This document shows positions 2,225 to 55,320 of a stretch of DNA of 55,320 nucleotides, piece by piece. Origin of the DNA: Massilia cavernae (GTDB lineage Bacteria; Pseudomonadota; Gammaproteobacteria; Burkholderiales; Burkholderiaceae_D). The notes beneath the pieces are model-generated. The model had not been told where the DNA came from and searched no databases. It worked only from the letters and a program-made list of their open reading frames with translations. A program made the translations under genes and the position numbers. Location: the NCBI RefSeq assembly GCF_003590855.1, contig NZ_QYUP01000153.1:1-55320 (forward strand), written 5' to 3'. How positions within the stretch are numbered: the stretch's first letter is position 1; every line of letters begins with the position of its first letter.

Positions 2225-2256
2225 AACCCGTTGACTGATGTCAGCGGGTTTTTTTT
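2225..2256 (+). terminator. rho-independent terminator of rrn1
   Basis: AACCCG and CGGGTT arms, an inner TGAC/GTCA stem and a TGAT loop, followed by a run of eight T (2249-2256). CGT and then the group II intron follow directly. The hairpin and T-tract are intact, so the insertion does not destroy termination. Confidence 0.9.
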
Positions 2257-2259
2257 CGT

Positions 2260-2904
2260 GTGCGCCCAGCATGGGCGCACTCTTGGAGGTGCAAGTCCTC
2301 CCGCGAGCTGGCCACAGCGAGCGAAGCGAAGCACAACTGCGGAAGGGCGACCGACTGTGGGGAGGAAGTGTGGAGCGAAACTGCGAGCCGATGAACAAGA
2401 ATCGGATAGAAGGCGCTGCCGAGCGGGGCGAGCGGGCACGAAACCGCAAAGCTCTTGTGGCCAATGCGAAGTGGCGTAGATCCGGCGGTTGTGCAGGGAA
2501 GGAGTGCGTTCTTACCTGGGGAGATCTCGTCTTATGTCTGAAAGGGCGACGGTGAAAGCCGGAACGAGAAGTCAGCAGAGGTCGTAGTAGTCGGAGGCTG
2601 GGCCGGGAAGGCCGAATACCGCCGACGAAGGGCCGAAGGAGCGGGAGGGCGATTCTGCCTGACCATCTGAGATGGATATGCTTCAGATGCCCGGATACGG
2701 GGCTCGTCACGCAACGCGCATCAGGTGAAGCCTGGTGCACGGTGACAGCGAAGAACCAAATCGGCCGGGTCGGGGCCAGATGAACCTAGGCTGCATGTTC
2801 GGGTATAGGCATGCAGACCTCAACCGTTTCAACCGCCCGGTGCGGACCCGCATGCCGGGTGGTGTGGGAGGGGCGCGGTCATTGTGGCCGCCCCCTATCC
2901 CGAT
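2260..2904 (+). mobile_element. ORF-less group II intron, copy 1, behind the rrn1 terminator
   Basis: A 645-nt intron. It starts GTGCG, whose first nine bases fold back on TGGGCGCAC. Domain V is at 2832-2863: a CGC triad whose central G forms a G.U wobble, a 4-nt loop and a TG bulge on the 3' strand. Domain VI follows and leaves A2897 unpaired, 8 nt from the 3' end, as expected for a branch point. The intron ends in AT (GAT). EBS1 is probably ACGAAA at 2438-2443, which pairs with IBS1 TTTCGT at 2254-2259. The ends are confirmed by the empty site in rrn3 (43609/43610). No open frame resembles a reverse transcriptase or maturase. Insertion behind a terminator is the known habit of subgroup IIC, but the length is large for an ORF-less IIC ribozyme, so the subclass is inferred. 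Confidence 0.9.
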
Positions 2905-15198: not shown

Positions 15199-15230
15199 AA
15201 CCCGTTGACTGATGTCAGCGGGTTTTTTTT
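15199..15230 (+). terminator. rho-independent terminator of rrn2
   Basis: The same AACCCG/CGGGTT hairpin plus T-run as in rrn1, followed by CGT and intron copy 2. Confidence 0.9.
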
Positions 15231-15233
15231 CGT

Positions 15234-15878
15234 GTGCGCCCAGCATGGGCGCACTCTTGGAGGTGCAAGTCCTCCCGCGAGCTGGCCACAGCGAGCGAAG
15301 CGAAGCACAACTGCGGAAGGGCGACCGACTGTGGGGAGGAAGTGTGGAGCGAAACTGCGAGCCGATGAACAAGAATCGGATAGAAGGCGCTGCCGAGCGG
15401 GGCGAGCGGGCACGAAACCGCAAAGCTCTTGTGGCCAATGCGAAGTGGCGTAGATCCGGCGGTTGTGCAGGGAAGGAGTGCGTTCTTACCTGGGGAGATC
15501 TCGTCTTATGTCTGAAAGGGCGACGGTGAAAGCCGGAACGAGAAGTCAGCAGAGGTCGTAGTAGTCGGAGGCTGGGCCGGGAAGGCCGAATACCGCCGAC
15601 GAAGGGCCGAAGGAGCGGGAGGGCGATTCTGCCTGACCATCTGAGATGGATATGCTTCAGATGCCCGGATACGGGGCTCGTCACGCAACGCGCATCAGGT
15701 GAAGCCTGGTGCACGGTGACAGCGAAGAACCAAATCGGCCGGGTCGGGGCCAGATGAACCTAGGCTGCATGTTCGGGTATAGGCATGCAGACCTCAACCG
15801 TTTCAACCGCCCGGTGCGGACCCGCATGCCGGGTGGTGTGGGAGGGGCGCGGTCATTGTGGCCGCCCCCTATCCCGAT
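15234..15878 (+). mobile_element. ORF-less group II intron, copy 2, behind the rrn2 terminator
   Basis: 645 nt, apparently identical to copy 1. IBS1 TTTCGT is at 15228-15233 and EBS1 ACGAAA at 15412-15417. Domain V is at about 15806-15837 and the branch-point A at 15871. The 3' exon starts CTGTACG, the same sequence that follows the uninterrupted TTTCGT in rrn3. Copies 1 and 2 probably spread by rrn recombination or gene conversion, because the whole 23S-5S-terminator block is shared. Confidence 0.9.
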
Positions 15879-43549: not shown

Positions 43550-43609
43550 CCCCCATTAGCCTAAGCGCGCTCAAGATCGCGCTTAGTGCGAATGGGGGAT
43601 TTTTTTCGT
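43550..43609 (+). terminator. rho-independent terminator of rrn3 and empty group II intron site
   Basis: A long hairpin (CCCCCATT/AATGGGGG outer arms, CTAAGCGCG/CGCGCTTAG inner arms) followed by ATTTTTTTCGT. Its stem is unrelated to that of rrn1 and rrn2. The sequence after it, TTTCGT then CTGTACG, is the exact join of the intron flanks in rrn1 and rrn2 without the 645-nt intron. Confidence 0.9.
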
Positions 43610-44844
43610 CTGTACGTTCCACAGGACCGCTTTCGACACCGCTCACTGCCCAATTCGACGGCATATGCGGCCGCCAACCTGGCAAACTTCAATGCGTGAC
43701 TGGCCTGCCCACGGCTGTTGGCATATGTGTCGTTCGCCGTGTGGATGTGCGGATTGTCCTTCTTGATCTCGGCCTCGAACGGCATCGACGCCGCATACCC
43801 CTGTGCGCTCCATGATGCGTGATCCGAACACGCGTAGCCGCATTTGTCGTAGCCGACCGTCACCGACGGCAGGTATGCCGCCACCAGGTTCGAAAGAAAA
43901 CCGTTCTGCCGCTCATCCGTGTAATCGGTGAAGATGTAGATGTCCTTCTCCGAACCCTTAAAGTTGGTCATGTCCAGCTGTAGCATGCCGACGACATTGA
44001 CGCCGTTCTTCTTGTATTCCCGCGCTATCTCCTGCGATCCTCGTAAAACCGACTTCCTCTGCCGCATACGCGATGAGCTTGATCGTCCGGCGCGGTTTGT
44101 AGTCGCCTGCGGCTAATACGCGTAGCACCTCGGTCAGGCCGGCGATGCCGGAAGCGTCGTCGTCGGCGCCAGGCGCCTTTGGTCGTGTCGCGTGTGCCGT
44201 AGCAGGGTTAATGGTAGTCCAGGTGCGCAAGCCCAGCACACCACCGTTCAGCCGGCCTTGTCGCTGCCGGCAATGGTGGCAATCACGGAGCGCTGGTCGT
44301 AGCGGGCGTGGGCATACTGCTCGATCGAAATATGGTCGCGGCCGGTGCCAAGTGCGGTCCACTTTGCCTTCAGCCAGTTCGACGAGTCGATGCCGGGCGC
44401 CGACGTGTAGTAGCGGTTGGCGAACGCGGTCAGGCCGGCGATGATCTCCGAGATATTCTTCTCCTGCATCCGAGACAGCAGCGGGGCCACCGTCGCCTGG
44501 TTCATGATCGCATAAGCAGGCCGTACGGAATGCGGTCTTGCGCTGGATGCTGCTTCCAGCATCAGCCGCCCGGCCGCTTCGCTGCTGTGATACATGAACC
44601 CGCCACAATGCCGCAGCTCGCGGTGCAAGGTGCGCGCGATCTTGTCCAGTTCCTGGCTGCTCACTTCCAGTAGGTGAATTTTTTCGGCGCCAGCCATCGC
44701 GGTGCGGCTTTCGCGCGGCTTGATCCTGGGATAGGCCTTGCGGATCACCTTGTACGCGGCGTCGCCGGCAGAGATCCACGTGGCTTCGGCGGATGCATGG
44801 CCGGCGGCCACGGCCAGCGCAAGCAGTACTGGAATGATATGCAC
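43561..44844 (-). pseudogene. secreted M28-family (leucyl) aminopeptidase, broken by indels
   Basis: Zinc aminopeptidase of family M28, secreted (signal peptide LLALAVAAGHASA). Three reading frames together give one protein. The first (from GTG at 44844) runs to SVIATIAGSDKAG and a stop at 44248. The second has the metal-binding GADDDASGIAGLTEVLRVLA and AYAAEEVG. The third resumes QEIAREYKKNGVNVVGMLQLDM and carries SDHASWSAQGY and the C-terminus. Around 44225-44250, where HLD should be, several small indels lie close together. Near 44046 one extra T breaks EEVGLRGS. The last frame reads into the rrn3 terminator before stopping at 43561, so the native stop may be lost. It could be true decay or poor sequence. 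Confidence 0.75.
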
Positions 44845-51176: not shown

Positions 51177-51280
51177 CACATGGAAGTTGTCAATAAGCGC
51201 CTGCTTTTCAAAGCCGGAAAATGCGCGGCCCTGCAGGTACGCCAGTTCCCATAACGATAATTAACGAGACAGAGGCAGAC

Positions 51281-52972
51281 ATGGACAAAATTTGGTTGAA
51301 ATCATACCCACCCGGCGTACCCGCGGAAATCGACCCGGACCAGTACACCTCGCTTGTCCAGCTGCTTGAAGAGTCCTTCAGCAAGTACGCGATGCGCAAC
51401 GCCTACGTCTGCATGGACAAGTACCTCACCTACGGGGAACTGGACGAGTACTCGAAGAAGCTGGCGGCCTGGCTGCAAAGCCGCGGCATGAAAAAGGGCG
51501 CGCGCGTGGCGATCATGATGCCTAACGTGCTGCAATACCCGATCGCGATTGCCGCCATCCTGCGCGCCGGCTACACCGTCGTCAACGTCAACCCGCTGTA
51601 CACCCCGCGCGAACTGGAACACCAGCTCACCGACTCCGGCAGCGAAGCCATCATCGTGCTTGAGAACTTCGCCAACGTCCTGCAGCAGGTGCTGTCCAAA
51701 ACCTCGGTGCGCCACATCATCGTGGCCGACATGGGTGAGATGCTCGGCTTCGCCAAGGGCATGCTGGTCAACTTCGTGGTCCGCAACGTCAAGAAGCTGG
51801 TGCCACCCTATGCGCTGCCGAACGCGGTACGCTTCAGCGACGCCCTGTCGCAAGGCAGCAGGATGCAGTTCACGCCGGTCGCCGCGACCAGTGCCGACAT
51901 CGCCTTCCTGCAGTACACAGGCGGCACCACCGGCTTGTCGAAGGGCGCGACCCTCACCCACCGCAACGTCATCGCCAACGTGCTCCAGACCGAGGCATGG
52001 TCCAAGCCTGCGCTGGATAAGGCGCCGGTGGTCGAGCAGCTTTCCATCGTCTGCGCATTGCCGCTGTACCACATCTTCGCACTGACGGCGTGCGCGATGT
52101 GGGGCACCCGCGTCGGCGCGCTGAACATCCTGATCCCGAATCCGCGCGACATCGGCGGCTTCATCAAGGAGCTCGCCAAGTACAAGTTCAACATGCTGCC
52201 GGCGGTGAACACGCTGTACAACGCGCTGCTGAACCACCCGGACTTCAAGAGCCTCGACTTCAGCGGCCTGAAGATCTCGAACGGCGGCGGCATGGCGGTA
52301 CAGCAGGCCGTCAACGACAAATGGAAGGCCGCCACCGGCACCTCCATCATCGAAGGCTACGGCTTGTCCGAGACTTCGCCCGTGGCCACCTGCAACCGCG
52401 CCGACATGACCGAATTCTCGGGCACCATCGGCCTGCCGGTGCCGTCGACCGACATCGCCATCCTGGATGACGACAACAAGCCGGTACCACTCGGCGAGCG
52501 CGGCGAAATCGCGATCCGCGGCCCGCAGGTCATGGCAGGCTACTGGAACCACCCCGACGAAACCGCCAAGGTCATGACGCCGGACGGGTTCTTCAAGTCG
52601 GGCGACATCGGCGTGATGGATGCCGACGGCTACGTCAAGATCGTCGACCGCAAGAAGGACATGATCCTGGTGTCCGGCTTCAACGTGTACCCGACCGAAC
52701 TGGAATCGGTGATCTCGATGCACCCCGGCGTGCTCGAATGCGCCGTCGTCGGCGTGCCGGACGAGTACTCGGGCGAAGCGGTCAAGGTTTTCGTCGTGCG
52801 CAAGGACCCGAATCTCACGCAAGAGCAGCTGATGGACTACTTCAAGGAGCAGCTCACCGGCTACAAGAAGCCGAAGTATGTCGAGTTCCGCAGCGAACTG
52901 CCGAAGTCCAACGTCGGCAAGATCCTGCGCCGCATGCTCAGGGAAGAAAAGAAAGAGAAGCAGGCCGCGTAA
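51281..52972 (+). CDS. fadD: long-chain fatty-acid-CoA ligase, first of two paralogues
   Basis: A 563-aa acyl-CoA synthetase of the FadD type that activates long-chain fatty acids with ATP and CoA for beta-oxidation. The P-loop YTGGTTGLSKG is at 212-222. GYGLSETSPVATCN (A5 motif), GWFKSGD-type FFKSGDIG, DRKKDMILVSGFNVYPTE and the catalytic Lys region LPKSNVGKILRRML are present. Start MDKIWLKSYPPGVP matches the paralogue's MDKFWLKEYQPGVP; upstream in-frame ATG at 51221 is rejected. A terminator follows, and a group II intron has inserted right behind it, before the second paralogue. Confidence 0.93.
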   Translation: MDKIWLKSYPPGVPAEIDPDQYTSLVQLLEESFSKYAMRNAYVCMDKYLTYGELDEYSKKLAAWLQSRGMKKGARVAIMMPNVLQYPIAIAAILRAGYTVVNVNPLYTPRELEHQLTDSGSEAIIVLENFANVLQQVLSKTSVRHIIVADMGEMLGFAKGMLVNFVVRNVKKLVPPYALPNAVRFSDALSQGSRMQFTPVAATSADIAFLQYTGGTTGLSKGATLTHRNVIANVLQTEAWSKPALDKAPVVEQLSIVCALPLYHIFALTACAMWGTRVGALNILIPNPRDIGGFIKELAKYKFNMLPAVNTLYNALLNHPDFKSLDFSGLKISNGGGMAVQQAVNDKWKAATGTSIIEGYGLSETSPVATCNRADMTEFSGTIGLPVPSTDIAILDDDNKPVPLGERGEIAIRGPQVMAGYWNHPDETAKVMTPDGFFKSGDIGVMDADGYVKIVDRKKDMILVSGFNVYPTELESVISMHPGVLECAVVGVPDEYSGEAVKVFVVRKDPNLTQEQLMDYFKEQLTGYKKPKYVEFRSELPKSNVGKILRRMLREEKKEKQAA

Positions 52973-52988: not shown

Positions 52989-53015
52989 CCGCCCGCCGTG
53001 CGGGCGGTTTTTTTT
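52989..53015 (+). terminator. rho-independent terminator of fadD1
   Basis: CCGCCCGC and GCGGGCGG arms, CGT loop, eight T, then CGT and intron copy 3. Confidence 0.92.
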
Positions 53016-53018
53016 CGT

Positions 53019-53663
53019 GTGCGCCCAGCATGGGCGCACTCTTGGAGGTGCAAGTCCTCCCGCGAGCTGGCCACAGCGAGCGAAGCGAAGCACAACTGCG
53101 GAAGGGCGACCGACTGTGGGGAGGAAGTGTGGAGCGAAACTGCGAGCCGATGAACAAGAATCGGATAGAAGGCGCTGCCGAGCGGGGCGAGCGGGCACGA
53201 AACCGCAAAGCTCTTGTGGCCAATGCGAAGTGGCGTAGATCCGGCGGTTGTGCAGGGAAGGAGTGCGTTCTTACCTGGGGAGATCTCGTCTTATGTCTGA
53301 AAGGGCGACGGTGAAAGCCGGAACGAGAAGTCAGCAGAGGTCGTAGTAGTCGGAGGCTGGGCCGGGAAGGCCGAATACCGCCGACGAAGGGCCGAAGGAG
53401 CGGGAGGGCGATTCTGCCTGACCATCTGAGATGGATATGCTTCAGATGCCCGGATACGGGGCTCGTCACGCAACGCGCATCAGGTGAAGCCTGGTGCACG
53501 GTGACAGCGAAGAACCAAATCGGCCGGGTCGGGGCCAGATGAACCTAGGCTGCATGTTCGGGTATAGGCATGCAGACCTCAACCGTTTCAACCGCCCGGT
53601 GCGGACCCGCATGCCGGGTGGTGTGGGAGGGGCGCGGTCATTGTGGCCGCCCCCTATCCCGAT
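53019..53663 (+). mobile_element. ORF-less group II intron, copy 3, behind the fadD1 terminator
   Basis: 645 nt, apparently identical to copies 1 and 2. The 5' exon is again TTTTTTTTCGT (IBS1 53013-53018), but the hairpin is unrelated to that of rrn and the 3' exon starts TTAGTT instead of CTGTAC. EBS1 is at 53197-53202, domain V at about 53591-53622 and the branch A at 53656. This copy is therefore an independent insertion, not a by-product of rrn recombination. Confidence 0.9.
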
Positions 53664-53693
53664 TTAGTTAAACCACAAATGACAGAGGCAGAG

Positions 53694-55320
53694 ATGGACA
53701 AGTTTTGGCTGAAGGAGTACCAACCGGGCGTGCCGGCGGAGATCGACTACACGCAATACCGCTCGCTGACACACCTGCTGGAGGAGTCGTTCCGCAAGTA
53801 TGCCGACCGCAAGGCCTACGTCTGCATGGACAAGGCGATCACCTTCCGCGAGCTTGACCAGATGTCGCAGCAGATGGGCGCCTGGCTGCAGGCGCGCGGC
53901 CTGAAGCGGGGCGCGCGCGTCGCCATCATGCTGCCGAACGTGCTGCAGTACCCGGTTGCCATGGCCGCCGCGCTGCGCGCCGGCTACACCATCGTCAACG
54001 TCAATCCCCTGTACACCGCGCGCGAGTTGCAGCACCAGTTGATCGACTCCGGCGCCGAAGCCATCATCGTGCTCGAGAACTTCGCCGGCACGCTGGAGCA
54101 GGTCATCGCAAAGACCAGCGTCAAGCACGTGGTGGTAGCAACGATGGGTGACCTGCTGGGCGGCCTGAAAGGCACCATCGTCAACTTCGTGGTCCGCAAG
54201 GTCAAGAAGATGGTGCCGGCGTTTTCGCTGCCGTCGGCGGTCGGCTTCAACAAGGTGCTGGCCGACGGCTCGCGCCTGGCGCTGAACCCGGTCAAGCTTG
54301 GTCACGACGACATCGCCTTCCTGCAGTACACCGGCGGCACGACGGGCGTATCGAAGGGCGCTGTGCTCCTGCACCGCAATGTCATCGCCAACGTGCTGCA
54401 GAACGAAGCTTGGCTGCAGCCGACGCTCGACACGCTGCCTGAAGGTACGCAGACGCAGTTCGTCTGCGCGCTGCCGCTGTATCACATCTACTCGCTGACC
54501 GTGTGCGCGCTGATGGGCATGCGCCTGGGCGGAATGAACGTGCTGGTTCCGAACCCGCGCGACATCCCCGGCTTCGTCAAGGAACTGGCCAAGTACAAGA
54601 TCAACATCTTCCCGGCCGTGAACACGCTGTACAACGCGCTGCTGAACAACCCTGACTTCTCGAAGCTGGACTTCTCGAGCTACAAGGTCTGCAACGGCGG
54701 TGGCATGGCAGTGCAGAAGGCCGTGGCCGAGAAGTGGCTGAAGGTGACCGGCACAGCCATCGTCGAAGGCTACGGCCTGTCCGAGACCTCGCCGGTGGCC
54801 ACCGCCAACCGCTGCGACATCAAGGAGTTCACCGGCACCATCGGCCTGCCGTATCCATCGACCGAAATCGCCATCCTCGACGACGACGGCAACCGCGTGT
54901 CGCTCGGCACCGCGGGCGAAATCGCCATCCGCGGCCCGCAGGTGATGGCCGGCTACTGGCAGCGCGACGACGAGACGGCCAAGTCGATGACGCCGGATGG
55001 CTTCTTCAAGACTGGCGACGTCGGCATCATGGACGAACGCGGCTACACCCGTATCGTCGACCGCAAGAAGGACATGATCCTGGTGTCGGGCTTTAATGTG
55101 TACCCGAACGAGGTGGAGGGCGTGGTGGCCAGCCATCCGGGCGTGCTGGAAGTGGCGTGTATCGGCGTGCCCGATTCGGCATCCGGCGAGGCGGTCAAGC
55201 TGTTCATCGTGAAGAAGGATCCTGCGCTTACCGAAGACCAGGTCAAGGATTACTGCAAGGACCAGCTGACCGGCTACAAGAAGCCGAAGTACGTCGAGTT
55301 CCGCAGCGAGCTGCCCAAGA
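53694..55320 (+). CDS. fadD: long-chain fatty-acid-CoA ligase, second paralogue, 3'-truncated by the window edge
   Basis: 542 codons of an open frame that continues past the window. It is closely similar to the first ligase along its length. The same P-loop position (YTGGTTGVSKG, 212-222), GYGLSETSPVATAN, FFKTGDVG, DRKKDMILVSGFNVYPNE and the terminal KKPKYVEFRSELPK are present; the final catalytic-Lys segment lies beyond the edge. The leader TGACAGAGGCAGAGATG resembles that of the first gene. Only 30 bp separate the intron end from the ATG, so a promoter must lie within or before the intron, or the gene depends on read-through of the first terminator. Confidence 0.92.
   Translation, partial: MDKFWLKEYQPGVPAEIDYTQYRSLTHLLEESFRKYADRKAYVCMDKAITFRELDQMSQQMGAWLQARGLKRGARVAIMLPNVLQYPVAMAAALRAGYTIVNVNPLYTARELQHQLIDSGAEAIIVLENFAGTLEQVIAKTSVKHVVVATMGDLLGGLKGTIVNFVVRKVKKMVPAFSLPSAVGFNKVLADGSRLALNPVKLGHDDIAFLQYTGGTTGVSKGAVLLHRNVIANVLQNEAWLQPTLDTLPEGTQTQFVCALPLYHIYSLTVCALMGMRLGGMNVLVPNPRDIPGFVKELAKYKINIFPAVNTLYNALLNNPDFSKLDFSSYKVCNGGGMAVQKAVAEKWLKVTGTAIVEGYGLSETSPVATANRCDIKEFTGTIGLPYPSTEIAILDDDGNRVSLGTAGEIAIRGPQVMAGYWQRDDETAKSMTPDGFFKTGDVGIMDERGYTRIVDRKKDMILVSGFNVYPNEVEGVVASHPGVLEVACIGVPDSASGEAVKLFIVKKDPALTEDQVKDYCKDQLTGYKKPKYVEFRSELPK

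Follow-up and report, generated by a model that had tools for sequence, protein, structure and literature searches.

How does an intron that carries no gene for a reverse transcriptase (RT) come to stand at several places of one genome? The question is raised by the window analysed here, a stretch of 55,320 nucleotides of Massilia cavernae which makes up one whole contig of an assembly of 201 contigs. In the initial annotation, made from the letters, three 645-nt units of this window were read as members of a group II intron family without an open reading frame (ORF), inserted behind rho-independent terminators and spreading in trans as non-autonomous elements.

The three units are letter-for-letter identical, as had been annotated (Table 1), and in each of them the Rfam models RF02001 (105.2 bits, gathering threshold 32), RF01998 (42.6 bits, gathering threshold 35) and RF00029 (41.5 bits, gathering threshold 40) were matched above gathering and in domain order. 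The unit starts with GTGCG and finishes with GAT, and GUGYG at the start and AY at the end are motifs of group II introns. The CGC triad and the unpaired A at position -8, both named in the annotation, were read back from the letters, and the A was unpaired in the folds; a D5 triad and a bulged A in D6 are given as group II features in PMC12350094. The single-sequence fold of the unit was more stable than all 20 of 20 shuffles (z -2.23). These domain models and sequence motifs confirm the identification as a group II intron, and splicing is predicted. No RT frame was found in the unit, the longest stop-to-stop frame being 97 aa and the YADD motif being absent, as is expected of an ORF-less intron mobilised in trans. 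Promoter scans of three stretches of the window found none.

Table 1. Features of the three introns, their targets and the unoccupied site (positions in the window)
Feature	Position	Strand	Basis
ORF-less group IIC intron, copy 1 (behind rRNA operon)	2260..2904	+	Rfam matches; identity with copies 2 and 3
ORF-less group IIC intron, copy 2 (behind rRNA operon)	15234..15878	+	Rfam matches; identity
ORF-less group IIC intron, copy 3 (between two paralogous ORFs)	53019..53663	+	Rfam matches; identity
Domain V, CGC triad at 2834-2836 (copy 1)	2832..2863	+	Rfam, folds, letters read back
Candidate branch-point A, domain VI, position -8 (copy 1)	2897	+	Unpaired in two folds; letter checked
Terminator hairpin, eight T and CGT, target of copy 1	2225..2259	+	Sequence; fold -24.5 kcal/mol
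Terminator hairpin, eight T and CGT, target of copy 2	15199..15233	+	Identical to copy 1 flank
Terminator hairpin, eight T and CGT, target of copy 3	52989..53018	+	Terminator scan; fold -27.4 kcal/mol
IBS1 TTTCGT, copy 1	2254..2259	+	Pairs 6/6 with EBS1
EBS1 ACGAAA, copy 1	2438..2443	+	Sequence; family-wide covariation
IBS1 TTTCGT, copy 2	15228..15233	+	Sequence
EBS1 ACGAAA, copy 2	15412..15417	+	Sequence
IBS1 TTTCGT, copy 3	53013..53018	+	Sequence
EBS1 ACGAAA, copy 3	53197..53202	+	Sequence
Unoccupied site behind third rRNA operon, TTTCGT/CTGTAC, junction 43609/43610	43604..43615	+	Sequence
Domain IV structured element (DIVa-like), copy 1	2645..2788	+	Covariance model R1, 118.3 bits; pair counts
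Domain IV structured element, copy 2	15619..15762	+	Covariance model
Domain IV structured element, copy 3	53404..53547	+	Covariance model
Domain IV base stem, 5' strand (partner 2824-2830)	2638..2644	+	Helix 1 of alignment structure

The sequence 5' of every copy consists of a hairpin, eight T and CGT, and GTGCG follows directly, just as described in the initial annotation. Copies 1 and 2 were found after the 5S genes of two rRNA operons and copy 3 between two paralogous ORFs, so the annotated use of both rRNA and protein-gene terminators also holds, and EBS1 pairs with IBS1 at all six positions in the three copies. The three rRNA operons lie within approx. 43 kb (window 1-43532), the first one being cut by the contig start. 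In the third operon a different hairpin is followed by TTTTTTTCGT and then by CTGTAC, the same six bases that lie 3' of copies 1 and 2. Thus an unoccupied paralogous site is available, which fixes both ends of the intron. Our own terminator rule accepted the three occupied sites and missed the third operon; a consensus terminator scan of three sites found the hairpin of copy 3 and missed those of copy 1 and of the unoccupied third operon. The flank in the third operon folds at -33.1 kcal/mol although both rules missed its hairpin.

Identity between copies 1 and 2 runs over 1462 nt upstream and 6 nt downstream of the units, so homogenisation of the rRNA operons may have produced one from the other. 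Copies 1 and 3 have only the 13 nt GGTTTTTTTTCGT in common upstream and 0 nt downstream. Three separate insertions are thereby reduced to at least two independent ones, according to the flanks of copies 1 and 3. The ORFs around copy 3 are arranged in tandem at window 51221-52972 and 53643-55319 and are, from their sequence, presumably acyl-CoA-ligase-like; between copy 3 and the likely ATG of the second ORF there are only about 15 nt.

The annotated lack of a reverse transcriptase is correct for the unit and for the window contig and incorrect for the genome. A search of the genome with the RT model TIGR04416 gave 13 matches and none of them was on the window contig. The view of a genome without RT was rejected, since RT-bearing class C introns are present on three other contigs (C15, C181 and C57), with 81% identity to the unit over its first 388 nt. 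The relative on C15 has an open RT frame of 474 aa, and the one on C181 an open frame of 462 aa, downstream of one TGA within a longer matched stretch. The class C intron on C57 (C57:20157-23865) is split by another, different group II RT in a twintron-like nest. The best PDB match of the C15 RT was the GsI-IIC RT (E 5.5e-127). The placement of all three copies behind terminator hairpins according to our rule, together with this class C enzyme (one RT was compared), supports the annotated subgroup IIC, a putative assignment made through the resident relative. Introns of this subgroup are characterised by EBS1 and EBS3, with EBS2 absent; the mapping covered the EBS1-IBS1 pairing.

Related introns that encode an RT are therefore found in the same genome, on C15 and C181. 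The EBS1/IBS1 pair of the resident RT-bearing relatives is ATGAAA with TTTCAT or TTTTAT, and that of the 645-nt unit is ACGAAA with TTTCGT. The RT-bearing introns nearest to the unit by RNA (89-90% over the first 330-357 nt) occur in other genomes (G007, G153, G019, G279, G033), and thus the resident relatives with 81% identity are possible helpers and not the direct parent.

On this basis we regard the 645-nt unit as probably a non-autonomous group IIC intron mobilised in trans. The RT gene would have been lost from the unit, and the ribozyme core and a structured element in domain IV would have been kept. A class C RT from another intron in the same cell would bind the unit, presumably through the domain IV element, and help its splicing, and the intron would then enter by reverse splicing behind those terminator hairpins that end in bases pairing with EBS1. 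Such spreading in trans agrees with the presence of class C introns in the genome and with the retention of the domain IV element.

The site choice was followed across the family. From a first set of 75 intron rows, 6 had no readable EBS1; in the remaining 69, at least 5 of the 6 EBS1-IBS1 positions pair, G-U included, in 59 rows. EBS1 and IBS1 covary: in 65 distinct rows Watson-Crick pairs occupy 317 of the 390 positions, as compared with a mean of 196 and a maximum of 232 in 5000 shuffles. In the ORF-less pairing set (38 rows, L121 and L191 being one copy) 5-6 pairs were counted in 24 rows, 4 pairs in 8 rows and 3 or fewer in 6 rows; three of these 6 poorly pairing introns (L122, the second introns of L198 and L201) lie directly behind another intron. 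Terminator-like sequences were recognised by our rule in 80 of the 96 distinct 45-nt flanks and in 143 of 5000 random 45-mers of the window, in agreement with the annotated placement behind terminators. Among the 16 flanks that failed, 5 follow another intron, 7 would pass on visual inspection as hairpins with a T run, and 4 have no T run (L023, L062, the first L063 intron and L169).

Domain IV contains a structured element with covarying base pairs. In 18 ORF-less introns 96.6% of the pairs are standard pairs (slid controls 29-46%), and 34 of the 53 pairs show double changes (8-15 when slid), the structure having been derived from the same 18-row alignment, which favours these counts. The covariance model R1 covers the inner part of this structure and was trained on the same 18 ORF-less rows, copy 1 included. 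Over 87 sources it gave a match in 69 and none in 18 (L019-L029, L060, L062, L162, L163, L164, L167, L168). Complete ORF-less rows outside the training set scored 46.8-144 bits, RT-bearing introns 34 to 78 bits and L139 18.2 bits; L199, L202 and L213 overlap the RT-bearing range. The idea that the element is a novelty of ORF-less introns was rejected, since the model built from 18 ORF-less introns finds the RT-bearing ones too, where the element overlaps the start of the RT frame.

With the alignment fitted to the covariance model, 88.1% of the domain IV cells were paired in the RT-bearing relatives (31-41% when slid) and 93.7% in the ORF-less rows. The RT frame is open in 35 of 36 RT-bearing rows, as compared with 20 of 41 ORF-less rows; the anchor motif was absent from 2 rows. 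Since the frame is broken in many ORF-less rows and the pairs are retained, the coding use of this region was lost and the RNA fold was kept. Among introns of RT length with both ends located, 20 of 33 had anchor motifs for the base stem; in each of these 20 the stem can form with 6 or 7 pairs, a count that is the best of 75 registers and has no control.

The ORF-less family, putatively non-autonomous, is one that extends well beyond the Massilia cavernae genome. In the family sample 55 of 392 genomes had a match at 1e-15 (two candidates scored per genome), and the genomes with long ORF-less matches were Massilia cavernae, G089, G128, G279 and G345, in which masked letters cut the match. When named genomes were scanned with a pattern, 38 matches were obtained on 36 stretches from 20 assemblies, mostly of betaproteobacteria; both intron ends were located in 22 of the 38 matches and the 3' end only in 16. 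More than one copy was present in 6 of the 20 assemblies (Zoogloea 7, Neorhizobium huautlense 6, Herminiimonas 3, Rhizobium esperanzae 3, Massilia 3, Cupriavidus amp6 2) and a single copy in the other 14. The lineage also occurs on plasmids of Cupriavidus campinensis and Rhizobium sp. CIAT894, and viral contigs gave one match. In the Neorhizobium family sample 5 of 297 genomes matched at 1e-25, Neorhizobium included, and such sparse matches are consistent with horizontal spread. In 399 order and 369 class genomes no match outside the own genome covered more than about the last 90 nt, the query being the 3' half with two candidates per genome, so that divergent members of the lineage would look alike.

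The hosts differ in their helper enzymes. Five genomes of the family sample carry the lineage. Intact class C RTs are present in G000 (Massilia cavernae) and G279, and the class C RTs of G089 and G345 are each broken into two frames. In G128 no class C RT was found, only an RT of 33% identity whose nearest PDB entry is 6me0 rather than the IIC RTs. Eighteen named host assemblies were searched: 8 contain an RT or a piece of one with at least 50% identity, in 6 the best identity of any RT is 32-39%, and in 4 there was no RT at E 1e-25. In five plasmid records with the lineage no close RT was found on the plasmids themselves. Neorhizobium huautlense, searched in its contigs of at least 3 kb, gave no group II RT above the cut-off, and its two weak hits were a UG13b defence RT and a TIR retron RT. 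Since contigs below 3 kb were outside the collection, an RT may be encoded there. For hosts without a close RT the simplest reading is the loss of the helper after the spread. The TIR-domain retron RT and the UG13b-type defence RT of Neorhizobium huautlense (L225, L221) lie in the same genome as its six intron copies.

These hosts supply the arguments for propagation without any RT, in which the ribozyme would cut or reverse-splice into DNA alone and host replication or repair would copy the unit. The six copies of Neorhizobium huautlense differ by 0-4 nt, in a genome without a group II RT above the cut-off, and the flanks of all six sites resemble terminators either under our rule or on inspection; G128, whose single contig is rated 100% complete, contains two copies 3 nt apart and only the distant RT. 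Liu et al. are said to have described in 2024 HYERs that have no protein and occur in several copies. The 645-nt unit, a IIC intron without a protein and in several copies, is like them in these two features. HYERs are hydrolytic endonucleolytic ribozymes of group II-C (PMC11127173; PMC11224995), described as locating and cleaving DNA (PMC11127173). A HYER cleaves DNA by RNA alone, an activity that this explanation would predict for the 645-nt unit. We consider this explanation unlikely, because base pairing is maintained in the domain IV element common to the unit and its RT-bearing relatives, which would not be expected without a binding RT, and the RT of these hosts may have been lost or may be encoded on a missing plasmid or in contigs below 3 kb.

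That the copies are fossils of an old insertion, spread by homogenisation of the rRNA operons and segmental duplication and no longer mobile, agrees with the 1462 nt upstream and 6 nt downstream common to copies 1 and 2. It is, however, very unlikely in view of copies 1 and 3, which have almost no flanking sequence in common, of the identity of the three copies with their intact catalytic features, and of the complete EBS1 pairing at all three sites. The strong covariation of the domain IV pairs could also be expected of a host regulatory RNA kept behind terminators, but the same element is found in RT-bearing introns, the flanks of the copies differ from site to site and one paralogous site is empty, which makes a regulatory RNA extremely improbable. 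Mobilisation in trans by a class C RT thus stays the preferred reading.

The history of the lineage was approached by trees. The tree of the domain IV element groups 42 of the 43 ORF-less rows in a single clade (support 100/99) and leaves L061 outside, a result favoured by the fact that many of the 42 rows had been picked by a pattern in the same element; the input was 73 chosen sources, without L139, L189, L197, L204, L205 and L212 among others. Because the stretches compared in an earlier domain IV tree (p-AU 0.58) differed in extent, the later tree was relied on. In the ribozyme core, where the bootstrap had not settled, a single ORF-less clade was rejected both with 31 rows held together (p-AU 0.00086) and with all 37 ORF-less rows held together (p-AU 9.6e-5). 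Both trees would be explained if ORF-less and RT-bearing introns had exchanged their cores, and tandem arrays such as L198, with two ORF-less introns and one RT-bearing intron in a row, would give the opportunity for such exchange.

A wider scenario can be sketched tentatively, and we hold it to be rather unlikely as a whole: a SINE-like IIC lineage of single origin, in which the RT was lost once and the RT-binding element kept, would have spread between distant proteobacteria, swapped its core with RT-bearing relatives and multiplied in some hosts without a class C RT, by means of a foreign RT or none. In the papers searched no description was found of this single-origin lineage or of its retained element, the published HYER list being outside this comparison.

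ORF-less introns and terminator targeting are both already known, and the 645-nt unit adds a non-autonomous IIC intron to them. The TeI3 introns are of class CL/IIB. In Thermosynechococcus elongatus driver RTs mobilise ORF-less TeI3 introns (Mohr et al. 2010, PMC2882425), and the unit is like these in the deletion of the ORF in domain IV, the broken remnant frame, the good EBS/IBS pairing and the covariation in DIVa. The TeI3 introns belong to one genome, whereas the class C lineage of the unit is spread across many genera and behind terminators. Class C (IIC) introns of bacteria are reported to insert directly behind rho-independent terminators (PMC8919778; PMC3522654); the unit resembles them in its placement and in the class C RT of the resident relative, and differs in having no RT gene. 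According to a 2015 review ORF-less group II introns are rare in bacteria and nearly always accompanied, in the same genome, by related introns that may supply an RT in trans (PMC4424553). The lineage offers many natural copies, an empty-site comparison and a defined RNA element for RT binding, and in G128 and Neorhizobium huautlense the need for a cognate RT can be examined directly.

Tandem intron arrays were seen in L198 and L201 (Zoogloea MAG), L122 (G279) and L063 (Polaromonas plasmid), with ORF-less and RT-bearing introns mixed in the arrays of L198 and G279. Five other ORF-less introns were set apart from the lineage (L060, L061, L062, L164, L167), and among the matches listed RT remnants were present in L060, L061 and L167. 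L062 (NZ_CP122941.1 82387-82871) is a 482-nt ORF-less relative; it lies on a plasmid of E. coli, with genes for holin, lysis and tail fibres nearby.
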